From: Branchiostoma floridae
Lineage: Eukaryota > Chordata > Leptocardii > Amphioxiformes > Branchiostomatidae
Assembly: GCF_000003815.2 (NCBI RefSeq)
Contig: NC_049986.1
Location: 18,409,049-18,473,048, forward strand
Length of the DNA: 64,000 nt
Direction of reading: 5' to 3'
In this document: positions 2,452 to 25,025 of the stretch, piece after piece
Layout of the letters: every line of letters begins with the position of its first letter
Position numbering within the stretch: the stretch's first letter is position 1
Notes under the pieces: model-generated
Seen by the model: only the letters and a program-made list of their open reading frames with translations
The model's database searches: none
Told to the model about the DNA's origin: nothing
Position numbers and translations under genes: made by a program

Positions 2452-4595
2452 ACAGTCCAGGAAAAATCATCATGATTGTCCGCCACACCGCAGAAGAACC
2501 CCTAAACCCTGTCCCACAAATCCCCACCGTTAAGGGGAAGGAGATCGTCGCTCCCGGCGACGGTATGGGCTACTCCGCGTACGAGGTCGTGCTCGGAAGC
2601 GACGGTAACGATGTGTTGGAGTACGGAGGACCAGGGTGCACCAGTAACCACATGTACTACTGCATGAAGGGGAGCGGGAAGTGTGTCCTCGCCAACGGAA
2701 AGGAGATCTCCGTCCCCGCCGACTTCTTCATGGGCTTTTCTTCTGCTGTCAAGTGCAAGGTCAGTTGTTTAGATAGATGGTGATGTGTTTTTTTTTTCAC
2801 TTAAGTATTAACCCATCTGTTTCTGTACTGAATTAAGTAGCTGGTACTGCTAGTTCACCTTTCCACCTAGTTCCAAGGGGTACTAGTAACTTATATCCGC
2901 TGTTAGTAAAAATAAAGTATAAATAACCCATTTTTCTTAATATAACGGATATAGGTTACCCCACGGATAAAGGTAAACTAGTGTTAAATGGAAATTTTTG
3001 CAGATTACTGCTTCGGAAGCCACACGGCTGTTCTGTGTGTTCAGCAAAGATAACGAGCCCTCTGAAGACCGCGTTGTCACCAAACCGCTCTCTGAGGTGA
3101 TCGGGACCGATAGGGATGTGGACTGGGGAAGCGGCTTCAGCAGGAGGTACCATAACAATCTGTCTGATATTGTCTGAGTCTACATTATAGCCTGGCAATT
3201 TACATTGTAGCTATTCTACGTGTGGTTCTGATGTATATTATAGTGTGTAGCTGTAACTTCCCCAAACTAAACAACACACAGGAAAATAACATAATGCAGA
3301 ATTCAGTTTTGCAGTAAATTACACAAAAATAGAAAGAAAGGATATACAGTATATTGAATTGGAGTTTGTTTTGCTTGGTCAACATTTTTCTCTTCTCCCC
3401 AAGCCCCACAAACGTACACCAAATATTTTAAGGTGGTAAGGGCACAGCAATTAGATTTGTTGGTTCTTGGACTTTTTCAAAATTTGTTTGACTTGAATTT
3501 GAAAGACAAGATGAAAACAAAGTAAAATGACCAGGTGCATGCCTTGGTGCACTGAGTGAATACAAAATGTACAGTCGTATGCTTGTCATTCTTGAGAAAG
3601 ACGAACAAAGCAAGTCTCAACCATCATCATTCCATATTCGATTGATATGTCTGCTTGCCATACATGTGTACTTTCATGTTGAAATGTCCAAAGAATCAAG
3701 GAAATACTGTAAATGCAGAAATGTTCGCAGTGGATTTATGTTTGTGGTTTTCGCGGTGGCCACTTCACCGTGTGGTCTACATAAATAAACAAACTAAACA
3801 CGCATCTCCATTTTTCCTGGAAGGTTCCTGCTGAGGGATGACAAGTTCGGAGTGTCGGTGACCTTGACCTCCGTCTTCACCCGCCCTGAGACTGTGAACG
3901 GGGTCCCAATGTGGTACAAGAATCACAAGGAGACTGCCTACTACATCAATGGTGGGTGGACATCTGCATTAAGATAGGGTGTCATACCGTTTTCCTTATA
4001 ATTAAATCATCTTCAGAGTTCAGACGTTTTAATTCATGGATAACTACTTTATTTCAATGCGAGAACAATACTTCATAGTCACAATTGCAAACAAAAGATG
4101 TCAAACAAACTACTCCTTACCTTTGGGGAATAGTATCTTTAGGTTGCTAAGTCTGTGGATAACAAAGTTCCTTGTACCATTAATTCCAACCAACATTTTG
4201 GTGACCATCTGTCACCTTTCTCAAGGCAATGCTGATGACTGATATGGTTGGAAATTTATGTAGCTTTAGTCAGTTTTGTCCTGAGGGTGACAGACGGTCA
4301 CTGAAACGTTAGCTTGAACAAAACGCTTAGTAGCTGTGTGCAAAGAACATCCTTATCCAGACTCCTTACCTTTTGTTTCCTTTCCCAAGGCAACATGACG
4401 TACCAGTGGGAGGAGGGGAAGCAGGAGGCATCGTTCCGGCCCGGCGGGACGGCCTTCATGATGAACAAAAACGACCCGCACCGCGCCCTGCCAAAGGAGG
4501 AGTCCCTGAAGCTGTGCGTGTTCTACCCAGCTCTGGTCGGCAACGAGAAGCACAGCTTCGATGGGGGGTACTCAGTCTATGGTGCAGCAGAGTAA
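2452..4595 (+). CDS. Ectoine-synthase-like double-cupin protein (EctC family), 254 aa, four exons
   Basis: Coding exons are 2472-2759, 3004-3146, 3824-3951 and 4390-4595. Phases agree and every junction is GT-AG. An acceptor at 2450-2451 suggests an upstream untranslated exon. The ATG at 2472 opens with MIVR, as bacterial EctC does. Residues about 129-254 follow EctC closely: GTDRDVDW, SRRFLLRDD, WYKNHKETAYYI, RPGGTAFMMNKNDPH, then LCVFYPALVGNEKH and a final GGYSV. Residues 1-112 are a second, diverged EctC-like cupin (DGMGYSAYEV, YYCMKGSG, TRLFCVFS). EctC cyclises N-gamma-acetyl-diaminobutyrate to ectoine, an osmolyte, and bacterial enzymes are about 130 residues, so this is a tandem duplication. 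From memory of EctC structures the iron ligands are Glu, Tyr and His. In the C-half Glu180 and His217 are kept but the Tyr position is Phe209, and the N-half lacks the set. Activity is therefore unproven; a cupin with another role is possible. Confidence 0.8.
2850..2993. repeat. MITE-like inverted-repeat element in intron 1 of the EctC-like gene
   Basis: The left end reads tagttcacctttccacc and the right end ggataaaggtaaactagt, with inner arms around tatatccgctgtt and aacggatataggttacc. The same termini recur at about 20360, 20590, 23062 and 55326, so this is a dispersed non-autonomous DNA transposon family. Confidence 0.6.
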
Positions 4596-6234: not shown

Positions 6235-6374
6235 TCAGGCCATCGTAGGCTGAGACATGCGTCCAAAAAACAGCACAGAGTTGGAGCTGTTTTCCCTGAT
6301 GAGGAACAGGAAGGGATGGTCGGCTATGAACTCCTGGGGACGGCGTGGCATCATTCTCGCCCTCATCATTACCC
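6235..6374 (-). CDS. Serpin cassette N: last cassette, P1 Arg with P3 Arg
   Basis: An intact 140-nt terminal exon. The loop is [15 protein letters not shown], then [13 protein letters not shown] and the terminus SQPTMA-stop. It is the most distal cassette, so it would act as the default 3' end if no upstream one is chosen. A TTTG microsatellite (6391-6420) lies just inside the upstream intron. Confidence 0.87.
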
Positions 6375-9300
6375 CTGGAACCAAACGTAGCTTTGTTTGT
6401 TTGTTTGTTTGTTTGTTTTTGGAAAGATCTGTAATACGATATCAAACAATCAAGCACTGGTTCCAATGATCATGCTGCTTTTTCATTGCGAATTAAAGTA
6501 AAATTTGGACATGAAAATATTTGGACTTAAAAACCAGGACTGTCTCCAACTTACAATTTTTGTTCATCCCACATGTTCTTCGGGAGCCCAAGTTCTTATT
6601 TGTCATTCTTAAATGTTTTGTTTTTAGCTTATAAAATACATTTTGATAAATTTCATGCAATGAAGTTCAAATGTTACGGATGGAGAGGGTGAAATTTTAA
6701 TTTGTTAAACAAGCAAATTTCAGTCCTGGAATGGAGGGATTGGTCTTGCAGACAGCCCTGGACTGAGTCTCACACATTTTCTAAGACTTGATTGTTTCCT
6801 TCTGCAAATTACAGTCACTGTGACTTCTGCCACATTCATCAGATAAAGATTGAACTGTGTTGATTTAAGTCTATTTTTTTATTCTTGCCACAAATCAAGG
6901 TGGCCTCTGCAATAAAAAAAAACTAGTCTAGACCTCTTTGAAGCAATGCCATCTGTAATTAGAGTTTAGACATTATGATTAATAGAACAATGGAAGTACA
7001 TGGACAGTGGACACAAAAAAGAGGACAGAGTTGGAATGTTTATCTCTAAGGACAAACATGAAGGAGATGTTGACAATGAGTCATGTAGGAGGCTGAGGCA
7101 TGGACCATCACCACGTTATTACACCTGAAACCAACAAAAGTATCCTTGTTTCACTTTCTTTACATTTTTTCAGAAAGATCTACACAAGACCAAATACCTA
7201 AGATCTTGTCAAAAAGCTTAACACGTTAAGGTTATTTATGTACAAGAACTGCCTCTTCTTTAAATCCATCTGATAGGGTTTGTTTATTTGTTTGTCGATT
7301 AGTGTTGAAATACATCCACTACTGTTGCAATTGCTGGAGTCCTCTTCCATGGAGTTGAATGTTATAGGATAGTTTGTATTCAACTTAACAATTTTTTAAT
7401 CTGACTCGGTCTTTTTGACTGAATTTATCTTAATTAAGCTCTTGCATCAAACTGGTTTCTGCATTTTTCCTAAGAAGAGGACAGAGTTGGTGCGGTTGTC
7501 TCTGATGAGAAACAGGAAGGGGTGGTCGACGATGAAGGGTGTTGGAGGACGCGGCATTGCTCGATTCATCATCATCACACCTGAAACCAAATATGCCAAT
7601 ACTCCGTGATTTTGTACGAGCTTTTAGAGAGTCACTATTTACTAAATATGAGACCTTGTGGAAAAGGTTCTGATTCATGATACTGTAATGCAGAAATCTT
7701 TGCGTTAGTTTTATGTTCGTGGTTTTCATGATGGCCACTTCACCGCAAACTTACAACCACAGCAAACATTTTTCCATTATAGTATGTGACTAAAGTTTAT
7801 GACACTATAGAGAACTTAAAGCCACCACAAACACTCCATTCTCCCACTACCGCAAACTTATTATTGTTGGGTGGTCACATGCCCTGTACTCAATTGGGCT
7901 TCTGCATTTTTCCTAAGAAGAGAATAGAGCTGGTGTATCCTTTGAGGAATAACAGGAAGGAAAGGTTGCTTGTGATGAGAAAAAGTAAGGGATGGTCGAC
8001 AATGAAGGTTACTGGAGGAGGCGGCAGCCCAAAATCTGCCTCAATCAATTAGACCTGGAACCAAAAGTATCTGACTCACTTTGTGTTTTTGTTCAAGCTT
8101 TAAGAAAGTTGCAAGTTACTAAATATATGAAAACTGTGGAAAAGATTCTGATTTCAAATTAGATCATTCAAATTTGGTCATCACAAAATTTCAAATCACT
8201 CTTAAATCTCCAATTAATTCATTGTGTGTTGCATCATGGCTTCTGCATTTTCCCTGAGAAGAGAACAGAGTTGCTGCTGCTGTCTGATGAGAAACACCTG
8301 GAAGGGATGGTTGGCAATGAAGGTTGTTGGAGGACGCGACATCCCAAAATCCATCTCGATCAGACCTCAACCAAATGATTGTATCTGACTCATGTTGTGT
8401 TTTGTACAAGGTTTAAGACTTTAAGAGATGTTGGGCATCGCATTACCCCGCCCGCCAGGGATGACAGATGATGATGATGACTAGATATGAAAACTTGTGG
8501 AAAAGATTCTGATTTTCTTTCTTTTAAATCAAAATCATTCAAATTTGTTGCAAATCACTTGAGAATCTCAAAATAATTCATTGAAAAGATTGAATGCTTC
8601 ATTAATGGGTCTTCTGCATTTTGCCAAAGAAGAGGACAGAGGAATCAAGCACAGAGATGAAGAGACACGGAGAGGGATGGTCGACGATGAACGGTGTTGG
8701 AGGATTGCTCGAGTTATCATCATCATCACACCTGGAACCAAATATATTAATGTGTCTGACCAAATGTCATTTTGTGTTTTCGTACAAGCTGTTCAGAAAA
8801 AGTCACAATTCACAAAATGCAATAAAAAAACAGGTGGTGAAGGTATTGATTCTTTATCTATTTTATTCATTATCAAATCATTTGAATTTGGACATCATTT
8901 TTACAAATTTCAGTATCTCTAATTAAATCATTGTGTGCTGAATCAAACTGGCTTCTGCATTCTGCCTAAGAAGAGAACAGAGTTGGTGCAGTTGTCTCTG
9001 ATGAGAAACAGGAAAGAATGGTCAACAATGAAGGGTGTTGGAGGACGCGATCGATCAAGTCATTATCATCACACCTGAGGAACCGAGTGTGTTTGACTCA
9101 TTTTGTGTTCTTATAAGAGCTTTTTGGAAAAGTCACAAGTCATAAAATATAAGACAAACACTAGTGCTGAAGGTGCAAAGGTACAGATTCTTTATTGCAT
9201 GATTGAATCATTCAAATTTGGACATCACAAAATTTCAAATCACTCTTAAATCTCAAATTAATTGATGTGATTAATTGATCATGGCTTCTGCATTTTTCCT

Positions 9301-12300
9301 AAGAAGAGAACAGAGTTGGAGCGGTTGTCTCTGATGAGAAACAGGAAGGGACGGTCGGCGATGAACTGCGTGGGAGGACGCGGCAACGACCTTTTCATCA
9401 TCATCACACCTGGAATCAAACATGTCTGTTTGTTGTTCGGGCTTTTAGAAAGATTCACACAGCACCAAATAATCAAGCACCAGTTATATTGATTCTTACT
9501 ATAATTTCTTTATTGCAAATTAATGCATTTTATGTTGCTGTCCAAAAGCTGCTGTCATACAACTACATCTTACTGTTCCATCAGCTATTTGCTATCCTTG
9601 ATCAATAGGTGTGATCAGTTATTGAGCAATATACTATGTATACAAATAATTTGTAAATCATTAATTTGATGTAATTTGTCACAAGGCATACATGTAGTTG
9701 ATAGGAGTTCCTTACACATTTGACACCCATCATAGTAAATTACTTAGTATTAGTACATGGTCTTTGTTAAACTAGAAAAAAGGGCAAAGCTTAAAAATAA
9801 GCATAAAATGTAGTTTCCTTGAGATAAGTAATTCACAGTATCAAAGGATGCTAATATAAGGGGGCCATCTAGCAAAGAACTTTGGTAACAACTTTGGAAC
9901 AGTAATCATAGTTGCATACACACACGTTCCCACACACATACATGTACACAGTCACATATTACATGTACGTAAGGCTGCTATCAAAGACTAATGACCCCAA
10001 TGCTCAGATGACGTACGGTGAACAGCATGAAACTACTAGTAATAAACTAACTGATCTGACCATCAAATCAAAGCCACCTTAAGTGAATTGCACTAATTTT
10101 TCCTATCAAACACGAGTACTGATAACTTGCAATGGATGATCATCTATTAGTCATGACTTGTAACACACAGCAAGAAAAAAATGCAATTAGTTTGAGAACA
10201 CTTTCCTGACATTCATATACAATCCAACCACTTCAAGTTGTGGGTCAATCTAGAATAGCAGACATCACAGCTATTGTAATACTAATCCATCTTTTCAATC
10301 CACAACGTCTTTTCTCTCATCCCAAATCCATATCACCCAACATCATCAGTTATCAGAGATTTTTTACACGATAATCATGGTGAAGTTTTATGATAACAAA
10401 TGAAAATGGAGACAAATCTGCAGATTGCTAGCATTTTACACAGCTGGGTTGTACATTTTGCCATAGAGGAGAATAGCATTAGATCTGTTGTGTCTGATGA
10501 GGAACATGAAGGGGCGATCTGCGACAAACATCGGAGTCGGCTGCTGTAGGGGTGACGTAAGCATTAGCGCAGGCGCCTAGAGCCCACGGTGAGAGATCGC
10601 AAATAAAAACAAGGCTTTAAACCATTGAAAAGCCTTTCTTGGTGGGATTTTATGCGAAATCTGGGCATTTTGGGGGTGGCTGCAGTAGGAAAGACCCTAC
10701 ACTGGTAGAATTAGTTGTAAAAAATGACCTTTCTCCATCGAGGGGGTTTCCGCACCCCCCTGAAATAGTGGTATCGTCGCCAGAATGGTGTTTTCAGCCA
10801 AATGGGCCAATCCAAGGGCTCTAATCAGGGGGGTGTATCAAAAGATTAGCCGTATAGAAATTCTTGCCAAGGAATTTGCCGAGACTGGATGTAGTAGGCT
10901 ATCATTTGAAGGTAAGTTTGTATGGCTTGAACTTTTTATTCTTGAGATAATTGCATATTTGTTTCCTCAACTCTCCCATTGGAACGCATGTATTAGTGGG
11001 TGAAATTCTAATGTCATCGTCTCCCCTGTAGTGATTCAGGTAGGCATGGATTAGGCCATTCCTGTTCATTTTAAGGGCTTTTTTGTCATGGATCTGTTAC
11101 CTGAGCAAGGTATAGGGTTCAGGTGACTGTCATTTACTTGAGATTTCCCCATTTTTTTGTTATTTTTGGCTCTCTTCCTTGTTTTTTAGCCATCCCTCCA
11201 ATCAGTGCCAGACTGCAGACCAGGGACAGTGTACAGAGGACTTGATNNNNNNNNNNNNNNNNNNNNNNNNNNNNNNNNNNNNNNNNNNNNNNNNNNNNNN
11301 NNNNNNNNNNNNNNNNNNNNNNNNNNNNNNNNNNNNNNNNNNNNNNNNNNNNNNNNNNNNNNNNNNNNNNNNNNNNNNNNNNNNNNNNNNNNNNNNNNNN
11401 NNNNNNNNNNNNNNNNNNNNNNNNNNNNNNNNNNNNNNNNNNNNNNNNNNNNNNNNNNNNNNNNNNNNNNNNNNNNNNNNNNNNNNNNNNNNNNNNNNNN
11501 NNNNNNNNNNNNNNNNNNNNNNNNNNNNNNNNNNNNNNNNNNNNNNNNNNNNNNNNNNNNNNNNNNNNNNNNNNNNNNNNNNNNNNNNNNNNNNNNNNNN
11601 NNNNNNNNNNNNNNNNNNNNNNNNNNNNNNNNNNNNNNNNNNNNNNNNNNNNNNNNNNNNNNNNNNNNNNNNNNNNNNNNNNNNNNNNNNNNNNNNNNNN
11701 NNNNNNNNNNNNNNNNNNNNNNNNNNNNNNNNNNNNNNNNNNNNNNNNNNNNNNNNNNNNNNNNNNNNNNNNNNNNNNNNNNNNNNNNNNNNNNNNNNNN
11801 NNNNNNNNNNNNNNNNNNNNNNNNNNNNNNNNNNNNNNNNNNNNNNNNNNNNNNNNNNNNNNNNNNNNNNNNNNNNNNNNNNNNNNNNNNNNNNNNNNNN
11901 NNNNNNNNNNNNNNNNNNNNNNNNNNNNNNNNNNNNNNNNNNNNNNNNNNNNNNNNNNNNNNNNNNNNNNTGGGGGGGGGGTGTTCCCCTATGGAGGGAT
12001 CCTAGACCAGGTGAATGTTGTGATTTAGCCTTGCAACACTCTTTTTCATTCTTTTTGCCTTTTCTATGATTGTCCCTATCCACACGAGTAGTCATTATAT
12101 ACCTTTCAGGGCCCTTGAATAGACTTTAGGCTTGCCTTGAAAGTGTCTAGAAAGGGGATGTAGGAGTCTAAGTGAAGGGAACAATGTCTCCATTAGCTTA
12201 GGTGACCAACTTTTGGCTTTATTCACTTGTTTCTGTCAAATTCCACCTGTAGCCAGCATCCCTAGCCCAGGTCCACAGTGCAGGCCTGGCACAGGTAGGT

Positions 12301-15300
12301 CATCAATCCCCAGGGGAGTGTTTCTTATCAGAGGTCTTTGATATTGATGGTTTTTACTTCACACCCCTACCCCGCAGTGGGTGACATGATTGACATCTGT
12401 CAATTGTGAACTTGAATTTACTAGAAGGGGTGACGTAAGCATTAGCGCAGGCGCCTAGAGCCCACGGTGAGAGATCGCAAATAAAAACAAGGCTTTAAAC
12501 CATTGAAAAGCCTTTCTTGGTGGGATTTTATGCGAAATCTGGGCATTTTGGGGGTGGCTGCAGTAGGAAAGACCCTACACTGGTAGAATTAGTTGTAAAA
12601 AATGACCTTTCTCCATCGAGGGGGTTTCCGCACCCCCCTGAAATAGTGGTATCGTCACCAGAATGGTGTTTTCAGCCAAATGGGCCAATCCAAGGGCTCT
12701 AATCAGGGGGGTGTATCAAAAGATTAGCCGTATAGAAATTCTTGCCAAGGAATTTGCCGAGACTGGATGTAGTAGGCTATCATTTGAAGGTAAGTTTGTA
12801 TGGCTTGAACTTTTTATTCTTGAGATAATTGCATATTTGTTTCCTCAACTCTCCCATTGGAACGCATGTATTAGTGGGTGAAATTCTAATGTCATCGTCT
12901 CCCCTGTACCATAGCACATTGCAACATCATCACCACCCCTGCAAATAGAAAGCACCCTTTCAAGCCTTTTAATATAGCGCTGATTGGGATCCCTCTGTGT
13001 AGTAAAGTACTGGCAAAGACTAAAGCACTCACATCTCGACACACCCTAGCCTTATATACAGGTCAATGCACTGTCAACAACACAATATGACTGTACCACG
13101 GGTGCACCCTAAGACAATAGATCATACAGCTGAAGGCTGTTCTTTCTTATTGAACACCAACTATACCTACATTAGACAACACATTTGTGTAACGGGGGCC
13201 ACCCTAAGATGCCCCCTGTCCTAAGATGCCCCAATTTTTTGCCGATCATATTATATTAAGTACGCCGTGTTTGTTGCCACTGACTATGATGATTAGAAAG
13301 GTAAATAAGCCAAGTCCAAACAAACAGCTTTTTTTGTCTATCAAAAAATATTTACACATATTCACTTCCCTTTTTTTTGAAGACAGAATTTTCACAATAA
13401 TGTAGGTAGCGTCGAATCACTGTGCTCACCTGTTACTAAGTATTGGTGGCTCGTGTCCATAAATATACAACCAGTACAAAACAGCCACACAACTGTCATA
13501 CACATAAGAAATAAAGCTTCACAAAACACTACAAATATTGGTCTTCAAATGTTTGTTGAGAAGAAGACTGGCCATAGAAAAAACAACATAAGCATCACTG
13601 CCGTTGTTTTCCCCAGGGAGTGTGGCCCCGCAGATGGTAGAAGAAGCGAACGCCCAAAAGATTTGTTGCTCTAACAAATGATCCGTACTGTCTATAAAAA
13701 TGAAACTTCACAGAGTGATGTCGAATATGTTTCCCAATACGTACGAAGAGTTTTTTCGTGATTTTGACGTTGTTGTTTTTCGTAATGATTTTGTTAGCCG
13801 GGCCGCCGCATTCAGTGCATTTCGCTCATTTCCCATGAAGACCTGGATGGTGAAAGATTTAGCCCTCCTCGCGGGAGACAAGAAGCACACACAATCACAA
13901 TTCTACTGTCAAAAGAAAGCTAATATATCATAGAAATAAAATGTGTATTTATTGTTATCTGAATTGGTCACCAGCTTCCGAAAAGACAAAATTGCAAAAG
14001 GGGGGCAAGTTAGGGCGCACTGTCTAGCGCAGCACAAAATCAGAAGTTATATTCACGAAAACGTCCTCAGTGTTTGCCACTTGTAACTAGGAGGGTGAAG
14101 GGTTCATGAACCATATGAATGCAGTCCTTATCCTATGTTCTTAAGATAAATGTGTTAAAGATTCATTGATCAAAACTTGACCACTCTCTGGCAACTAGTG
14201 ATGGAGCGCCATGAGTTCGAGCGCATAAAAAGGGGGGGCATCTTAGGGCGGCCCCCGTTATAACATTGTTGAGTAGAAGACTGGCTGATATGTACATGCA
14301 AATGTATGTCCAAACATTCTTTTATCAGTTGTCTGTAGATAATGGTAAGCTAAGACTTTACAAGACTGTCAAATGTATAATTAGCATAGTACAATGTCAT
14401 ATATTTTTGTGTTCCTTTAAAGCTATAAGCTGCTGAAAGGCCCGGTTTCTTTGATATATGAATAAGCTAAAAACAAGTTTAAAAAAGCTGCAAATGTCAA
14501 ACAGCCTCTCTCGTTGGTCTACAACAGCAATAGCCTGGGTACCATCTGGATAGTAGTTCGCTACTTTGCAGTTTGGAATCAGACTTTAGAGATGTCAAGG
14601 CTCCCAGACGGATAGCAGAGAATTTGCCATAGAAGAGAACAGAGTTAGAACGGTTGTCCCTGATGAGGAACAGGAAGGGATGATCGACTTCAAAGGAATG
14701 AAGATCTGGATCAATCGCACCGCTGAAGCCGCAGCCCACACCTGCAAGCAAAAAACACACAGGTGCACTCACTGCAGCATGTTTTTGCACTCTAAGTACA
14801 CTGACATAGTTTCATACTGAAGGCTAGCTGAAAGCTGTTCAACAAATCATACTATTACTAGAGATTTTTTTAAATGTGAGCAGCGATATTTACTGCATGT
14901 ATGTGTAACCCTCACAAGAAATGGCAAATAAAGGATAAAGGAAGTCAGTGAGTGAGTGTGAGTGTAGAAAAATCACACGTATGGAGGAGTCAAAATTGTA
15001 GTTCTCAAAAAAAAAACTTACACCCTTGCAAATATAAAGTCTAAAAAGGTGGTGTATACGATTAGGCTTCAGGCTTGTACATTCTGCCTAAGAAGAGAAC
15101 AGAGTTGGAGCGGTTGTCTCGGATGAGAAACAGGAAGGGATGGTCGGCAACAAACTCTGGAGGACCTTCAAGGTCCAGGGCACATAGCATCATCACCACA
15201 CCTGTAATAACAGAACACTTTTTCAAGACTTCAGGCCGCCAGAACGAAAATGTTCTAATGTGTGTCTTTTTACCTTGAGATCAACGGTAAGGACATAAAA

Positions 15301-18300
15301 CACCTTTTCAAGTCTGTGCCAAAAAAAACCCACAATATTCTCACAATGACGGTAGACTTAGTCTAGCATATAGGAAATATCATATTATATACACTCACAC
15401 ACTCACTCATGATGAACTCTACAAGCAAACAAACCCCTTTCAAATCTTCTTAGGTTATACACACTGCACAGGTCACCATACTTGAATACTGGCATACTGG
15501 ATGGTTGCACTGTACATGCTCAAGTCAGTGTCTATAGTTACACACATAAGGCTTTCATATTCAAGCCAAGCTCAAAGCTGTGGCTCAGCATCTGTTACCA
15601 AGGATTTCCATGCAAGCATATAATAGTAAACCTCAACATTGACTACAAGCACATTTGATCCTTACAACATGAGGAGTAATGGACAAACAATCGGTTAGTG
15701 AGTGGGTGAGTGTGAGTATAGAAAGCAACTGGCCAACACCTGGTGCAAAGCAACAATGGACTCTAAATTGAAGACCTTTAATGACAATCATGAAGTTACC
15801 CTTGAAAGTATGAAGATTGTATAAAAAGGTGGTGTTTACAATCAGGCTTGAGGCTTGCTCATTCTGCCAAAGAAGAGAACAGAGTTGCTGCGGTTGTCTT
15901 TGATGAGAAATATGAAGGGATGGTCAGCGATGAACGGTGTGGGAGGGCGCGGCATACATCGATTCATCATCATCACACCTGGAACCAAATGTGTCTGACT
16001 CATCTTGTGTTTTTGTACAAGGTTTTGGACAAAGTCACAAGTCACTAAATATTTTTTAATTGATGGTGCTGAAGGTTCTGATTCTTTATTTAATAATCAA
16101 ATTATTCAATTTGGAGATCACAAAATTTCAAATCACTTCAGAATCTCAAATTAATTCACTGTGTGTTGCATCATGGTTTCTGCATTTTTCCTAAGAAGAG
16201 GACAGAGTTGGAGCAGTTGTCTCTGATGAGAAACAAGAAGGAACAGACGGCAACAAACTGTGGAGTATCTTCAAGAACTAGAGCACATCACATCATCATC
16301 ACACCTGTAAATTGTAATAAGAAATCACCTTGATGTATTTCAAACCTTCAAGCCAGCAAAGAGCTAAAATGTTCTGACTCACAATCCTTTTACCTAATGA
16401 GACCAAAAGTCAGGCTATAACCTATATATACATGTACACACTCACCCATGGCCTCATATACAATGTGTTAGAAAAAGATTCAACAGTTATTGATGGAATG
16501 TTAATGTGCAGCTGTTGGGACATTGGCGCTCTGCCATGGGGGGAATTCATGAACATGACTGTGTTAACTGCCTTTTCAAGGGGCACAATGTCAGGGCGTG
16601 GTGGGCATCAAATACTGCGCCACACAGACATCTCACAATGTGTCAGATGCTGATGCAAATCATAAGGACTGCATTGCAAAGAAGAAGATCTGACAGGCTA
16701 TTTCCATGGTCCAGCCAAAGGGACTGAGAGAGCAGGGGTGTAAATTGTAAAGCAACAGCATGCTTGTACTTGTACTCAACAAGTAAAATGCCCAAGCTCA
16801 AAGCAACAGATGTGGGAAAAGCTTTCAAGCCTTCTGACATTGCTGAAGTTGTTGAACAGCCAGAAGCTGTAAAATGAAAGACCTCAGCTTTGATTCAAGC
16901 CGTGGGGTGTGAAAGCCGTCCACAGAAAAGCACAGAGTTGGACAGGTTGTCTCTGATCAGGAAGAGGCAAGGGTGATCCACACTGAACTCCAGAGGTGGG
17001 AAGAGTGGTGCAGATTCTGTCACCATGAGAACACCTTAGAACCACACACAAATCACAACAGCCAACCTCAGACCTAATTGCTGGTGTTTCTTAAGTACAG
17101 TCTAACTTCATATTATAATGTAGAGTATGTATGGCTATTTGGTATATTCAACCCAAATGTATTTTACCCATTCCTCAGCAGTACAATAAAGAAAGAGGTT
17201 AGAAAAAGTTAAATATTAAAAGCAAAAAAAAGCAGCACAACATCAATGACAACACAACAGGCAGAGCTAGAAACAGGTCTGACTGAGAAAGACTCAAAGA
17301 CAAAATGCACTTCCTCCAGTTCTATTGGTGAAGCTTGCCACACAGAGCACGAGGGAGCCATCATGGCAACTGGAGCCAAGAACTCAAGGCGGGTCTTAAG
17401 CTATTCACTCAGGCAGGTACATACATGTACAGTATGTGTAGTATACCGGTATGTATGGATGCATGTGAGACAGCTTGTTTCAGCCACAGAGAATTTGAAC
17501 AAGCATGAGGTGCATGCTGGTGGTTGTTGTAAGTTGGCACAGAAGGGGGTTTTTGGACTTCCCATATTGATGTCTCTAATAAACCAAGTATTCTTCATAA
17601 ATACACTTATGAATTTCTTAACTTATTTGATTCCTTTCTTTCTTCCTTCCTTCCTTCTTCCTTCCTTCCTTCCTTCCTTCCTTCCTTCCTTTTCTTCTTC
17701 CAATCATTCTTTCTTTCCTTCCCCTTCCTTTTTTTCTTCCCCTCTCTCCTTTCCTTCACATGTCCCCCTTATGATAATGAAGATACTAATAATGATTACA
17801 GTAATACAGTACCTGTGGCAGCGGCAGCCTCTGTCCCTTCTTCGTTGACCTCCACAAAAGCCTTGTGCACGACAGCAGAGATGAAGAGATCCTTGCTTCC
17901 TGACATGCCAGAAAAATCTGCTGCATCGCTGAAAGCCTCTCCCATACCCATCTTCTTCAGGGTGTCACCTGCATTTTCAGTCACAATTGAAGATAAACAC
18001 ATTGTTATTTCTCATTGATATTTCTATGACAATGTTGTTTGCATGAATTGTTATTGTTATATCCTTCTCATAGGTAAGCCCTCTTTTACAGTGTTGTGGG
18101 TTTGCACCATGGAGTGTTAGAACGATGTACAGGCCCTATTTCTGAGTGTTATACTTAGCACCACCATGGACAGGCCTGTTTCTGAGTGTTATATCTATCA
18201 TCATGGCAGGCCCTGTTTCTGAATGTTACATTTTGTATATCTAGCACCATGGACAGGCCCTGTTTCTGAGTGTTACACTTAGCACTATGGACAGGCCCTG

Positions 18301-21300
18301 TTTCTGAGTATTATACAGCACCAAGGACAGGCCCTGTTACTGAGTGTTAAAAACTCCAAGGACAGGCCCTGTTTCTGAGTGTTATATAGCACCAAGGACA
18401 GGCCCTGTTTCTGAGTGTTATGTCTAGCACAATAGACAGGCCCTGTTTCTGAGTGTTATAGCACCATGGACAGGCCTGGTTTCTGAGTGTTACACTTAGC
18501 ACCAAGGAAAGGCCCAGTTTCTGAGTGGCCTAGCTGACCATGTGTCCCTTACTTTAAGGTAGAGTAGATCCTTTGACAAGCATAAAATTCTGAATCACCA
18601 GGGATGCTACTAGACCACATGTGGTCACAGTCTTCAACTGTGACCTGTCTGATAGCAATTTCCCACCTCAAAATACCTTAGAATTCCCAATTCTAATCTA
18701 AAGTTATCTAAAAGAAAACTACACACCATACACGGGGGAAGGCCCCCTTTCTACACCGCCCCCCCCTCCTTAGCTGGTTGCTCTGTTCTCTTCCAAGTTT
18801 TCCAAGAAAACCCCCTGGTCTCCTTGTCACAGACTTACCCAGCCCAAACTCCTGCTCCAGTTTGAAGCGGGGCAGCAGCAGGTTGACCTTGGTGCTGTAC
18901 ATCTTGCTGCTGACAGTCTGCAAGGTCGCTGCTGTCAGAGAGGACTCCAGGTCCTTAATGCCCTCCACTGTAAGAACAAGCTAAGAACTTTAATTCTAGG
19001 CACGAATACATAGATGGGGTTCATGTGGCATAACTGTAGGGTGCCGGATCTTTCCCAAGGACTCCGACTTATCGATGGAATGGCAGCATGGCATTTTTTC
19101 AGAATAAGACTCTCCCATGGACTATTACACTTTGATGTAGGGGGTTTCTAATACTTAATTGCGGTCTCAGTGGTTCAGGGTTTTAGCCAGCTCGAATTTT
19201 TTTTCCGTCAGCCAATTAAAATCGTCGCAAAAACAGCAAAAATTAATTAGAAGGACTGAACTGAAAAACAGGTTTTAATGAGATTGGGCGCGAAAGGGCG
19301 CCGACACGCATTGTCAACAATCCTAACAATAGCAAAACAAACAGTATGTGGCTTTTACGGCCGTGGACAGCGTCCCCAAGCCGCCTGGAGCTTTCACCAA
19401 GGATTTTTGTCCGTCAAAGTTGACGGATTTGTTTTATAATTTTTCCGTCAGACGCAAATTCCGTCAATTGACGGAAAAACGGACGCTGGCTAGACCCCTG
19501 CAGTGGTTTTTTAGTGGGTTTATAACACCTACTTCATTGTTTCCCGAGACAGAAGGATGCCAACAAACAACCCAAACTCACCTGCATCTGGCAGAAAGAT
19601 GAGCATGCTCAGCTCCTTCTCCACATAAGGCAGCTCCAAGACACGACACTTCAGATCCTCGAAGACGCCGTAGTTGAAGTTGGCCTCTTTTCTCATCATC
19701 TTCACCTATATCCCGACACGTTTTTAATAAACTATGGTCAAAATAAACTTCAGCATGGAAAACAGCACTGTCCAAAAGGGTTTAAGATGCTGTTACAATA
19801 AGAATGGAACTACATTGTATTCAGACAAACACAGCAATGCGGGAGTACATATTTTAATGACACATTACACATGTACGTATATATCAAATTGTTTTTGTTC
19901 GTATTTGTTTGTATTGCATAACCTATAAACTGCATTATGGCATAACACAACGTTTGTACTTTTGTACTGAACAGTAAATGACCTTGGGAACGGTGAAATG
20001 CTTCAGACACTCTTCAACGAGATCTGCTCAGTTTCAATGACGAAAGGTGAGTCGATGCTGCCTGAAACGTCTGACTATTTCCAAAATCATATTCAGTTCA
20101 GAGTATTACTATTCGGTGTACAATGTATCTTATTACCTGGATGTCTGACCTTCATAAACAAATGAACAATTTACCTTGACTTTCTCATTATTGTTGATGT
20201 TGAAGTCCCGGTCGCGGGTCATATTTGCATCAAACTGCTCGTCCCAGTTCCCCTTGAAGTAGATGGCATTCACCAGGACTAACCTACAACACAGCAGCAG
20301 TTTCACACGTCATTCTACAAGTTGATTAAAGTTTCTACTGTAACAATAACTATAATGCTGAATCACCTTTATCCGAAGATAACCTATATCCGTTGTTTGT
20401 ATAAAAGCGTATTTAGGGACATGAAGTTGACGGACGGTGGTTTCAAATCGGAACATTTTGAAACTGTTGCAAATTTGAAACCACATTCCGCAGATTTAAT
20501 ACTCCTAAATGTGCTGCTTTTTAAGACAATGGATAAAGGTCACCCTGCGGAACTAGCGTTACATCATGAAAAAAGGAGAACTACAAAAAACGCTAATTCA
20601 CCTTTTTTGTTGGGTAACCTAGATTCGTTGTTTTGAAAAGCTGGGTATTTAGAGATTTCAGGTCAACGACGTGGGTTTCAAATGTCAACATTTTCAAGAT
20701 ATTCCAATGAGAAACTACCTTCCATTGACTTAACAGTCCCCAAGTACCCTATCTTTATATACAATAGATATAGGTTACCCTACGGATAAAGGTGAACTAA
20801 CGTTAATACATTCTGACACTAGCAGCTGTTTAACTGTTTGTTTTGTTAATTTCCTGACAATTTTTTTAAATTTTTTTGTCAAGACAATTGAAAAGATAAG
20901 ATGTGATAGTGGTATCACTTAATGATTAAAAGTTACAATTATATCGCCAATAAGGTTTCATTCTTAGGCCACATCAATTCAATTTCTTGGTTCACAGATT
21001 CACTCGCTCCTATTTTTTGGAAAAAAAAATAAAAATAAAAATTACCACTCAGCAAGTTTTCACCATTAATGAAACCTTTCATCAACTTTCAGATGTAGCA
21101 AATTGGCCTTTATATCATAAGCTCCTTAATGTGTGGGTACAGGTGCTGTTTGCACAATAATAGTGTTTTTGTACTTTTTTCAAGTTGAAAACTTTTTTTC
21201 TTTATGTTTTGGATTAGCCGTTACCTATACCCCAACCATTTTACAATGTTCATTTTTATTTTTATTTCGCCCTTTCGCTCCGTGTGGCCTTATATCAGGA

Positions 21301-22845
21301 AAAAAAACTACATACCTTGTCATTGCATCCACTGCTCCGGCCGGGATCAGGTCTTTGATCTTGTTCTTGGTTTGCTCCTCCACCCACTGGTTGATGGTTC
21401 CTCGAACCTGCTCAGCTGCGCCCTGCAAAATGTAAGTGGATTTTGATAAGGTGAAGATACTATGGTGTTTGCAGTGTGGGCTTTGAGACGAGCTATAAAT
21501 TAATTCCTGATAGAGAGAACTTGTTTTACACAGGTGACAAAAAAATCATTGAATTTTCTTTTGGAGGTAACAGTCATTCTATAATTATCTGTATCTATAT
21601 AGCCGAACACACCAGCTTCGCAGGCACGCAGTGCGGCAGCAGCTGGATATATTACACCGAAGGACCCAACAACATTACTGGACATTTGGAGGGATAAATC
21701 TGACCTTGAAGTCCACAGCAGCCAGCTCTGCCCCGTAATTCTTGTTGGTGGCATCCAGGAAGTCCTGTAGGAAACTGTAGGTCTGCTCCCCGTACAGGCG
21801 GTTTGCAGTCTGCAGGGTGTACTTGTCACTGTGGGCAAATATCACGTGTCATTCTACAACATACACATGACACTAGTTCGCTTATATATGTTGTCTTGAA
21901 ATATAGGGTGCTACAAGTTGAGCTACAGGGACATCCAAATTTGTATGTTAGAACACATGAATTCAATAGCATATATGAATACAGTACTAGTAGAAGGCAG
22001 TCAATTGCACAACAGATTACAACAGATTACTGCACACTGTTAATTTCACGGAATCTGCAAATCCCAAACCGGTTCGGCCCTTCGCATTATCACACCCAGG
22101 GATAAACAAGTCCACTAGCCCGATTGTCCCGGGCAAGTAAAAGTGCTGTTCGGGCAAGCAGAATTGCTTCCCCACTTGCCCAACGGGCAAGTAAGAATTT
22201 CCAGATTTGACCCGCTCAAATTACCACTGAGTGTGACAGCACATGGGGCTGAATGCCGGCCTATATTGACCATGTCATTTTTAAGCCAGTAGAGACATCG
22301 AGTTTGTTGTTGTTGCTGTCCTCGTTTAACGTCTATTATTTTGCAAGACGTGGTTTCTTAACAAAAGTGAAAATTTATGAAAGTGAAAACACATAGAAAA
22401 ATGTCATTTAAATTTCGGGCATTAGTGACAATTTGGTTCGGGCAAGTAAATTTTTAATGTACTTGCCCGATAGGACAAGTGAATTTTTGAAAACTTGTCT
22501 AACCCTGCACACCACCTTGATAATTGTACAAAATATGCTGGCAAATAAGGTGTGCAATCAAGCGACTTCTACTGTACTTCTAAAGGCCATTACTTAAAGC
22601 CAACCTTGCATACAGCTGCTGGTGCAGTTTGGAGAACGTGCCGTGCAGGGTGTCGTTAGGCATGTCCCTGGAAACACAGCGTCCCCTTCATAGCGCCCTC
22701 CGTGCTGCCGCGAGCGCCGAGGGACGTCATGGCCAGCGCCACGGAGATGCTGTACGGCGAGAAGAACACGTTTCCGCTGGTTCCGCACAGCTCGCGGTAC
22801 AGGTTCAGCGCAAACTCCGTGTTCGCTGCACTTAGCTTGTCCATC
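6235..22845 (-). CDS. Clade-B-like serpin gene with seven shared exons and an array of alternative reactive-loop 3' exons
   Basis: Shared exons are 22605-22845, 21705-21828, 21316-21422, 20175-20283, 19582-19705, 18839-18967 and 17813-17968. The start is the ATG at 22842-22844, two bases inside exon 1. The first residues, [19 protein letters not shown], have no signal peptide, like intracellular ov-serpins. Hallmarks are [20 protein letters not shown] (exon 1), NAIYFKGNW (exon 4), [16 protein letters not shown] (exon 5) and [13 protein letters not shown] followed by the hinge TEAAAATG (exon 7). That alanine-rich hinge is the signature of inhibitory serpins. Exon 7 ends inside the P7 glycine codon. 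Each downstream cassette begins with the two bases that complete it and supplies P6 to the C-terminus including [13 protein letters not shown]. Joined to a normal cassette the product is about 372 residues, a normal serpin length. Exon 1 carries a one-base frame break near 22666-22668 in this assembly. The upstream 5' untranslated exon and promoter were not found. Confidence 0.9.
7005..7124 (-). pseudogene. Serpin cassette M: degenerate
   Basis: The acceptor survives, but stops interrupt the loop (after VITW) and the later frame. Remnants of MFVLRD and HSNSVLFF identify it. Confidence 0.6.
7447..7580 (-). CDS. Serpin cassette L: reactive loop with P1 Arg
   Basis: An intact 134-nt terminal exon. 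The loop is [15 protein letters not shown], then [13 protein letters not shown] and the terminus MQKPV-stop. It differs from cassette C mainly at P1' (Ala instead of Cys), so the two may share a protease class while differing in kinetics. Confidence 0.87.
7890..8054 (-). pseudogene. Serpin cassette K: degenerate, with internal insertion
   Basis: A stop follows LID at the loop start, and a partial internal duplication interrupts the strands ([14 protein letters not shown], later [13 protein letters not shown]). It is not in phase with the acceptor. Confidence 0.65.
8234..8365 (-). pseudogene. Serpin cassette J: loop intact (P1 Phe), frameshifted after FLIR
   Basis: The acceptor ggttgag leads in frame into [15 protein letters not shown], giving a Phe P1 that would suit chymotrypsin-like proteases. 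After VFLIR a small deletion shifts the frame. The serpin frame resumes as [14 protein letters not shown]. It could be a recent lesion or an assembly error. Confidence 0.65.
8602..8731 (-). pseudogene. Serpin cassette I: degenerate
   Basis: The exon starts like the others (VMMM) but is short by several bases in the loop. The serpin frame ([10 protein letters not shown], then SSVLFFGKM) is out of phase with the acceptor, and the RDN segment is rearranged. Confidence 0.65.
8943..9074 (-). pseudogene. Serpin cassette H: degenerate
   Basis: An acceptor and C-terminal strands ([19 protein letters not shown]) are present. The loop has a stop after VMIMT and is about two bases short of the frame used by cassettes G and L. 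Confidence 0.7.
9279..9409 (-). CDS. Serpin cassette G: dibasic Lys-Arg reactive site
   Basis: An intact 131-nt terminal exon. The loop is [15 protein letters not shown], then [13 protein letters not shown] and the terminus GKMQKP-stop. P2-P1 Lys-Arg with Ser at P1' suggests trypsin-like or proprotein-convertase-like targets, although P4 is Met rather than the Arg that furin prefers. An AATAAA on the minus strand lies about 85 nt downstream of the stop. Confidence 0.87.
9410..10435 (-). other. Intron-like AT-rich spacer between serpin cassettes F and G
   Basis: No reading frame or cassette remnant is recognised here. The sequence is AT-rich with a short CA-rich patch near 9915-9960. Confidence 0.4.
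10436..10548 (-). pseudogene. Serpin cassette F, 3' piece (C-terminal strands)
   Basis: It encodes [19 protein letters not shown], then [16 protein letters not shown]-stop. The piece begins exactly at a TGTA that is repeated on the far side of the inserted DNA. Apart from the insertion the cassette has no stop or frameshift, so the disruption may be recent or polymorphic. Confidence 0.75.
10549..12904. mobile_element. 2.36-kb insertion flanked by two 478-bp direct repeats, inside serpin cassette F
   Basis: Copies at 10549-11026 and 12427-12904 have the same orientation and length and are nearly identical (one visible difference, G at 10777 against A at 12655). Each copy starts ggggtgacg and ends cgtctcccc, which are imperfect 9-bp inverted repeats. 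The whole is bounded by TGTA at 10545-10548 and 12905-12908, consistent with a 4-bp target duplication. About 1.4 kb lies between the copies, including the gap at 11247-11970. It may be a composite of two MITE copies or an unusual terminal-repeat element. No transposase is visible. Confidence 0.75.
11247..11970. other. Assembly gap
   Basis: A run of 724 undetermined bases lies between the two 478-bp direct repeats. Confidence 1.
12905..12938 (-). pseudogene. Serpin cassette F, 5' piece (acceptor and loop), split by an insertion
   Basis: An acceptor (ttgcag) and the expected phase are followed by VVMML-Q-CAM. The frame is then cut by a 2.36-kb insertion. The remainder resumes at 10548. Removing the insertion and one TGTA copy gives a continuous cassette of 143 nt reading on through [13 protein letters not shown]. 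Confidence 0.75.
13190..14264. mobile_element. DNA transposon remnant with about 30-bp terminal inverted repeats
   Basis: The left end reads taacgggggccaccctaaga and the right end, reversed, taacgggggccgccctaaga. The match continues into the GCCCCC tract. The element is about 1.07 kb, lies in the intron between cassettes F and E, and contains only short frames with no recognisable transposase. Confidence 0.75.
14497..14741 (-). CDS. Serpin cassette E: unusual loop and a long C-terminal extension derived from a MITE
   Basis: The acceptor cttgcag and phase match the other cassettes. The loop is [16 protein letters not shown], then [13 protein letters not shown] and LFYGKF. Instead of stopping after about six residues, the frame runs on for about 40 more (including [18 protein letters not shown]) to a stop at 14497. 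Bases encoding [11 protein letters not shown] match the terminus of the inverted-repeat element at 61311-61470 (gatagtagttcgct). Whether this tail is tolerated is unknown, because serpin C-termini are usually buried. Confidence 0.7.
15062..15201 (-). CDS. Serpin cassette D: reactive loop with Cys at the counted P1
   Basis: An intact 140-nt terminal exon reading [16 protein letters not shown], then [13 protein letters not shown] and the terminus YKPEA-stop. By hinge counting P1 is Cys. A one-residue shift would make Leu the bait, so specificity could be chymotrypsin-like or cysteine-protease-directed. The loop is one residue longer than those of C, G and L. Confidence 0.82.
15842..15978 (-). 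CDS. Serpin cassette C: reactive loop with P1 Arg
   Basis: An intact 137-nt terminal exon. The loop is [12 protein letters not shown], then [14 protein letters not shown] and the terminus SKPQA-stop. Arg at P1 predicts trypsin-like protease targets; Cys at P1' is unusual. It shares flanking sequence on its stop-codon side with cassette D, so the two arose by duplication of a larger unit. Confidence 0.85.
16171..16304 (-). pseudogene. Serpin cassette B: nonsense codon in the loop
   Basis: The acceptor is good and the C-terminal strands are intact ([19 protein letters not shown]), but a TGA replaces the P2 codon after VMMM. The rest ([11 protein letters not shown]) resembles cassette D. If spliced in, the product would end at P3 and lack the loop and the last strands. 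An AATAAA on the minus strand lies about 80 nt downstream. Confidence 0.75.
16895..17034 (-). CDS. Serpin cassette A: reactive loop with P1 Glu
   Basis: An intact 3' terminal exon of 140 nt. The acceptor ttctaag is followed by the P7-completing bases. The loop reads [11 protein letters not shown] (P6-P1, then P1'), followed by [13 protein letters not shown], the serpin C-terminal strands and SHPTA-stop. Counting from the conserved hinge puts Glu at P1 and Ser at P1', an acidic bait unlike the Arg cassettes. It is the first cassette after exon 7 and the most diverged in base sequence. Confidence 0.85.
17633..17760. repeat. CTTC/TTCC microsatellite tract
   Basis: A nearly uninterrupted pyrimidine run on the plus strand, purine on the transcribed serpin sense strand. 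It begins about 50 nt after the exon 7 donor. Confidence 0.9.
17813..17968 (-). CDS. Serpin exon 7: last shared exon, ends in the reactive-loop hinge
   Basis: This exon encodes [20 protein letters not shown], then the strand 5A region and the hinge [11 protein letters not shown], with the final Gly codon split one base before the donor. Small residues from P15 to P9 allow loop insertion, so the scaffold looks inhibitory. The donor faces a purine-rich tract (TTCC repeat on the plus strand, 17633-17760) that starts about 50 nt into the intron. Confidence 0.9.
18095..18535. repeat. Minisatellite in serpin intron 6
   Basis: About 11-12 imperfect copies of a roughly 35-bp unit with the core gacaggccctgtttctgagt. 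Units differ mainly in the spacer (tagcaccatg or variants). Confidence 0.9.
19176..19500. mobile_element. hAT-like MITE with an exact 8-bp target duplication
   Basis: The ends read cagggttttagccagc and gctggctagacccctg. Both sides carry cagtggtt (19168-19175 and 19501-19508), the 8-bp duplication expected of hAT transposition. It lies in serpin intron 5. Confidence 0.88.
20360..20806. repeat. Two adjacent copies of the tcacctttatccg MITE family
   Basis: One copy begins near 20360 (tcacctttatccgaagataa) and a second spans about 20590-20804, ending ggataaaggtgaactaac. Both lie in serpin intron 3 and share arms around aacctatatccgttgtt. Confidence 0.65.
22097..22507. mobile_element. Inverted-repeat MITE, CAGGG ends
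   Basis: The left end is cagggataaacaagtccac and the right end, reversed, cagggttagacaagttttc. Several gggcaagta motifs lie inside. The direct repeat cacacc flanks both sides. It is in serpin intron 1. Confidence 0.75.
22605..22845 (-). CDS. Serpin exon 1 (start codon) with a one-base frameshift
   Basis: The acceptor ttcttttcag sits directly before gATGG, so transcription must start further upstream. The exon encodes helix A and the strand 6B/helix B region. After KGTLCFQ the frame runs into a stop. Skipping one G (one of the three C bases at 22666-22668 on the plus strand) restores [19 protein letters not shown] and the correct phase into exon 2. The start-to-donor length is 240 nt, whereas the downstream phase requires 239, which confirms one surplus base. 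It could be a sequencing error, a polymorphism or a true lesion. Confidence 0.85.
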
Positions 22846-24835: not shown

Positions 24836-25025
24836 NNNNNNNNNNNNNNNNNNNNNNNNNNNNNNNNNNNNNNNNNNNNNNNNNNNNNNNNNNNNNNNNN
24901 NNNNNNNNNNNNNNNNNNNNNNNNNNNNNNNNNNNNNNNNNNNNNNNNNNNNNNNNNNNNNNNNNNNNNNNNNNNNNNNNNNNNNNNNNNNNNNNNNNNN
25001 NNNNNNNNNNNNNNNNNNNNNNNNN
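24836..25025. other. Assembly gap
   Basis: A run of 190 undetermined bases next to a strong hairpin sequence. Confidence 1.

Follow-up and report, generated by a model that had tools for sequence, protein, structure and literature searches.

A 64,000-nt stretch of the genome of the lancelet Branchiostoma floridae (contig NC_049986.1, here C8:18409049-18473048; hereafter the window) carries a serpin gene in which a single set of body exons precedes 14 repeated terminal exons, each encoding the protein from P6 of the reactive loop to the C-terminus. We propose that this is one serpin gene with mutually exclusive alternative terminal exons, which would supply about seven inhibitor specificities, four of them with Arg at P1, and we give this reading a probability of about 75%. 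An initial annotation of the window had assigned a whole series of alternative terminal exons for the reactive loop to one serpin gene, and the single body set, the shared splice phase and the insect-type junction reported below support that description. Alternative loop exons, as in the insect Manduca serpin-1 with its multiple reactive-loop terminal exons, let one inhibitor gene trap many proteases.

Organization of the serpin gene

The serpin body comprises seven coding exons on the minus strand (22845-17813, window positions), whose phases are consistent except for a frame break inside the first exon, and the terminal exons, here named cassettes A to N, lie 3' of it on the same strand (17034-6235):

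22605..22845, minus: first coding exon, ATG at 22844, clade-B-like N-terminus; frame changes between 22671 and 22666
21705..21828, minus: serpin body exon, ends DFK
21316..21422, minus: serpin body exon
20175..20283, minus: serpin body exon
19582..19705, minus: serpin body exon
18839..18967, minus: serpin body exon
17813..17968, minus: last constitutive exon (exon 7 of the initial annotation), ends in hinge plus G, donor gtactg at 17813/17812
16895..17034, minus: cassette A, intact
16170..16304, minus: cassette B, decayed, in-frame TGA in loop; D-type front, G-type rear; low end approximate
15842..15978, minus: cassette C, intact; G-type front, D-type rear
15062..15201, minus: cassette D, intact
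14497..14741, minus: cassette E, open; usual stop lost, 81 codons, about 35 extra residues
12910..12938, minus: cassette F, first part
10549..12903, no strand assigned: insert splitting cassette F, 2355 nt, 724 of them N, TACAG at both edges
10436..10543, minus: cassette F, second part
9279..9409, minus: cassette G, intact; dibasic loop; AATAAA 82 nt past stop
8940..9074, minus: cassette H, decayed, stop and frameshift in loop; low end approximate
8604..8731, minus: cassette I, decayed, frameshift; low end approximate
8236..8365, minus: cassette J, loop open, tail frame-shifted; low end approximate
7890..8054, minus: cassette K, decayed, early stop, 27-nt insert; low end approximate
7447..7580, minus: cassette L, intact
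7015..7124, minus: cassette M, decayed, early stop; low end approximate
6235..6374, minus: cassette N, intact

When the translation was read across the frame break, with X at that point, it matched the Pfam domain Serpin (PF00079) with 443.6 bits over 7-376, and the hinge of the body, GTEAAAAT, is of the inhibitory type. With a full-length domain and such a hinge, the predicted product is a member of the serpin superfamily. The closest Protein Data Bank match of the body is 4ga7, the leukocyte elastase inhibitor (SERPINB1, clade B; E 1.4e-107 over 1-372), and the nearness to clade B is judged from the top matches, with serpins B3/B4 next to leukocyte elastase inhibitor. The start Met aligns with that of 4ga7, and by this alignment a signal peptide is not evident, although an alternative first exon upstream was not searched for; the cell location of the protein is a prediction.

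The body exons are present once in the window, where a second serpin body was not found, and in genome-wide searches, which covered the 513-Mb assembly (431 contigs), the 5-kb body region had one full-length match, the others being at most about 430 bases long and mostly in repeats (40 of 11836 first-look candidates scored). The possibility that each cassette belongs to a separate complete serpin gene, which the initial annotation had named as an outcome that would contradict it, was checked in this way and is rejected. A related explanation, that the array is an assembly artefact or a series of complete serpin genes with body exons missing, could appeal to the two gaps of the window (11247-11970 and 24836-25025). 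However, just the first of these (724 N) is inside the array, where it falls within the insert of cassette F, the body exons occur once, and the cassette copies are too divergent to be one sequence assembled repeatedly, so that we regard this explanation as very improbable.

All 14 cassettes have AG directly before the exon and complete the P7 Gly codon, and hence share one phase, as the initial annotation had stated. Queried with the seven intact cassettes, tblastn located 14 minus-strand sites at E < 1e-6, all within 6238-17035 and seven of them the queries' own positions. J had an E value of 9.4e-7, and the 13 others were under 1e-7, F being recognized by its second part (4e-12). Since 20 dinucleotide-preserving shuffles of the window yielded no match < 1e-6 and one < 1e-3, a chance origin of these matches is ruled out. 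Searching the whole assembly with cassette L (E up to 10) returned 25 matches, namely the 14 of this array and 11 in other serpin loci. Seven cassettes (A, C, D, E, G, L, N) are intact, with a frame that runs to a stop codon, one is split (F) and six are decayed, in agreement with the status first assigned, to which we add that E is without its usual stop and that J has an open loop and a shifted tail. The acceptor sites proposed for the intact cassettes also hold, with their numbering lowered by 1 nt (first bases 17034, 15978, 15201, 14741, 9409, 7580 and 6374).

In the arrangement that we propose, the constitutive donor at 17813/17812 would be spliced to one cassette acceptor, followed by cleavage and polyadenylation, and each transcript would carry one bait loop on a common scaffold. 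About seven cassettes, perhaps eight, would be usable. The view of some 14 alternative exons as working parts has to be given up, seven being broken or split, and so has the term combinatorial, because there is only one exon choice and the number of isoforms cannot exceed that of the usable cassettes (about 7 or 8).

The splice junction compared with other serpins

When intron positions were projected on alpha1-antitrypsin (placement good to a few residues), the last junction fell at 352a, in phase 1 and one base past the hinge (ACA G/gt), and the remaining introns mapped near 107b, 147c, 181b, 217c, 258a and 300a. According to PMC10513286, 161 of 192 alternatively spliced insect serpin genes use this hinge end +1 junction, which the lancelet gene shares exactly. 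Among insects, Pteromalus PpSerpin-1 has 21 C-terminal forms (PMC10513286) and Drosophila Spn42Da (Spn4) four loop exons (PMC4006314), and the spread of such serpins over insects and nematodes is indicated by the title of a 2002 paper cited in PMC2746811. The serpins of these two groups likewise combine one body with several loop and C-terminus exons and rapid exon turnover. If the kind is defined by one body set followed by at least two loop/C-terminus exons, the lancelet gene, with one body set and 14 terminal exons of which seven are intact, falls within it, and we take it to be a real multi-loop serpin gene of the same kind as in insects and nematodes, whose splicing is a prediction. It differs from them in its lancelet host, in an N-terminus without evident signal peptide and in having half of its cassettes broken.

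For vertebrate group V3 (PAI-1, nexin-1, neuroserpin), PMC2556349 lists introns at 167a, 230a, 290b, 323a, 352a and 380a. The lancelet gene shares 352a only; 167a, 230a, 290b, 323a and 380a were not found in it, and it thus lacks the V3 intron set. Clade B serpins such as SERPINB1 resemble the body over its whole length, with the start Met aligned and a similar hinge, but differ in that 352a is listed for group V3 (PMC2556349). As to lancelet groups L1-L3, to which Spn-1 belongs, their intron lists lack 352a, and an intron at 339c is common to L2 and L3 (PMC2746811). Our gene has 352a, is without an intron at 339c and has none of their intron sets; because 352a is on none of their lists, we consider it an architecture outside L1-L3. 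More B. floridae serpin-like sequences existed, which were left unshown (PMC2746811).

Among the papers listed from an open-licence library, in some searches a part of the finds, and judged by titles and the starts of abstracts, with most subscription papers and database-predicted isoforms outside that scope, we found no report of loop-exon arrays in lancelet or another chordate. To our knowledge, multiple loop exons are not known in vertebrates. A cephalochordate case at the insect splice point thus raises the question of whether the device is ancestral to bilaterians and was lost in vertebrates or has been reinvented; if it was ancestral and lost, vertebrates multiplied whole serpin genes instead. 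A bolder version of the first answer, which we find doubtful, would make 352a an ancient bilaterian splice point and have loop arrays predate the split between chordates and arthropods, the lancelet and insect arrays being one device and the 352a intron of vertebrate PAI-1 and neuroserpin a remnant of it; a second lancelet array, on another intron (see below), would then diversify loops in similar units.

Selection on tails and loops

The seven intact cassettes of the 14 were compared in 21 pairs, over 24 tail codons and seven loop codons (P6-P1'). The ratio of the proportions of nonsynonymous and synonymous differences (pN/pS) was 0.24 in the tails (bootstrap 0.11-0.39) and 0.64 in the loops (bootstrap 0.46-0.79), and slightly different codon windows gave 0.31 and 0.68, respectively. 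The tails of the intact cassettes are under purifying selection, and the loops are freer. This bears on the possibility that the locus is an exon graveyard, in which no more than one or two cassettes still serve and the rest, even those that look intact, are relics of a formerly larger array. Such a history would account for six decayed cassettes and one split among 14, for the canonical poly(A) signals near only four of the eight cassettes examined and for the loss of the usual stop in E, but seven cassettes have stayed open despite a mean synonymous divergence of their tails of pS 0.51, with the tail pN/pS as low as given above, and all seven retain AG acceptors in one phase. We consider the graveyard unlikely. 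In a simulation of neutral survival, with substitutions only and independent lineages, the probability that all seven frames remain open was 0.23, 0.045, 0.013 and 0.003 at 0.1, 0.2, 0.3 and 0.4 changes per site.

Several points weigh against the reading of one gene with alternative terminal exons. Seven of the 14 cassettes are broken or split, the polypyrimidine tract of cassette A, judged by eye, is weak, and AATAAA or ATTAAA occurs within 450 nt past the stop in only four of the eight cassettes (present for C, G, L and N, absent for A, D, E and F). In the comparison limited to C, G, L and N, loop and tail are constrained alike (pN/pS 0.29 vs 0.34), and positive selection on the loops is not shown, since over the seven intact cassettes neither loop nor tail pN/pS exceeds 1 overall. 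With a simulated probability of 0.23 at 0.1 changes per site, it would be no surprise for the seven frames to have stayed open under neutrality. The splicing of the array isoforms and their production as proteins are, moreover, what we infer from the gene's anatomy. Finally, the first coding exon shifts frame between 22671 and 22666, a break of one base that is absent from the initial annotation, and meets a stop soon after, and as assembled the predicted gene gives no full serpin from the ATG at 22844.

This frame break may be due to an assembly error, a polymorphic null or a real pseudogene. The last of these, a gene inactivated as a whole by the break in its first coding exon, has the frame change and the early stop in its favour. 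Against it, the six other body exons have open frames, keep phase and closely resemble serpins, and a one-base frame difference could stem from sequencing or assembly error; we judge it quite unlikely. Our confidence in a single gene with alternative terminal exons is held to the level stated at the outset because its splicing is predicted, the first exon has a frame break and poly(A) hexamers are near only half of the cassettes examined.

Loop shuffling between cassettes

Cassettes B and C combine features of two lineages, and their flanks were compared with those of the other cassettes by local alignment scores against shuffles (13 of the 14 cassettes, the split F being left out here as well as from one divergence comparison). 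The 90 bases upstream of B match D only, with a score of 25 (99% of shuffles at most 13), and its downstream flank matches G (64), J (57), H (47) and I (39), D reaching 12. Conversely, the 90 bases upstream of C match the G-type group (K 48, H 45, I 38; D 11), and its downstream flank matches D (27) and, weakly, A (19), with G at 14 and shuffles at 17. From these alignments, B (D-type front, G-type rear) and C (G-type front, D-type rear) are reciprocal chimeras, and loops have therefore moved from one tail to another. This is the pattern to be expected if a G-type segment, reaching from a tail to the loop that follows, had entered a D-type cassette by recombination in the conserved tail sequence. 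More generally, the array would grow and decay through duplication and recombination inside the conserved tail, by which loops of one lineage have come onto the tails of another. A single locus thus records loop shuffling, in B and C, together with the birth and death of cassettes.

The insert that interrupts cassette F has a 1395-nt interior, in which the assembly gap falls, between two direct copies of a 483-bp sequence; the copies differ by one mismatch and have short inverted ends. TACAG precedes both copies and follows only the second. In the window and the retrieved serpin loci, the 483-bp repeat has two copies, both in this insert, which may be a retroelement of the long terminal repeat type or a DNA-transposon-like repeat present twice, both fitting its structure. 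The near identity of the two copies suggests a young insertion. The insert edges supply GT and AG, in frame; one may speculate that cassette F is still usable, with the insert spliced out as a new intron.

Predicted specificities of the isoforms

P1 was assigned by counting 17 residues from the hinge Glu, as is the convention. By this count, four cassettes (C, G, L and N) have a predicted P1 Arg; D would present Cys, A Glu and E Ser. With P1 residues that differ in this way, the isoforms of the array should trap different proteases.

The loop of cassette G has a close counterpart. The assembly also holds a serpin ending AAAATAVNMMKRSLGG...KDEL, which fits the published lancelet Spn-1 and so supports a chordate host, a Branchiostoma, for the array. 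PMC2556349 gives Spn-1 a P5-P1' sequence NMMKR/S, a signal peptide and a KDEL end, and reports that it inhibits proprotein convertases. Its loop is one residue from the MMMKR/S of cassette G. In contrast to Spn-1, with the signal peptide and KDEL of that description, the array gene is without an evident signal peptide; cassette G thus predicts a convertase-type inhibitor loop on a scaffold of a different kind in this respect.

A second serpin locus on the same chromosome

Serpin exons are also grouped at C8:20.106-20.158 Mb. This cluster includes a minus-strand gene with GRS at P2-P1' and the ending TNPNE*, which fits the description and primer of BjATl of B. japonicum in PMC3299649, and a series on the opposite strand:

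C8:20127637-20136189, plus: four terminal serpin exons, after a 10.9-kb gap; starts 2839, 2839 and 2638 bases apart

Each of the four holds hinge, loop and tail, with an acceptor just before VNEKG that is taken to be 339c; body exons were not found between them. They may be alternative exons of a single gene, a reading made tentative by the 10.9-kb gap. The four repeat units are about 95 to 100% identical in their long alignable parts, and units 1 and 2 are alike, loops included. Differences between units 1 and 3 affect 11 of 42 loop bases vs 22 of 1056 around them (Fisher p 7e-9), and those between units 1 and 4 affect 12 of 42 vs 30 of 594 (p 4e-6; non-aligning 5' flank left out), whereas units 3 and 4 differ at 4 of 42 loop bases vs 31 of 593 (p 0.28, not significant). 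Of these three informative comparisons, two thus show differences concentrated in the loop, and the loop codons changed between units 1 and 3 comprise five nonsynonymous and one synonymous. From its layout, this locus is possibly another alternative-loop array, on a different intron.

Two further repeats occur on the minus strand of the same cluster. Behind the BjATl-like gene, a 156-bp tandem repeat is present in 3.6 copies (C8:20134280-20134837), each holding the serpin tail, or a near variant, and then stops. Five copies, 123-134 bp apart, of a sequence resembling part of a serpin body exon (HSFRHDFLMDTSRHYHSSLATVEF) lie at C8:20156667-20157251.

Features beside the array

Two other matches lie beyond the downstream end of the cassette array in the window. 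At 4305-4592 on the plus strand, just downstream of the array, the Pfam family Ectoine_synth is matched with 3.4e-08 and 34.2 bits (cut-off 27), in an animal genome. Further on, at 1712-2242 on the minus strand, there is a reverse transcriptase fragment (RVT_1, 1.4e-21), which we take to be LINE-like.

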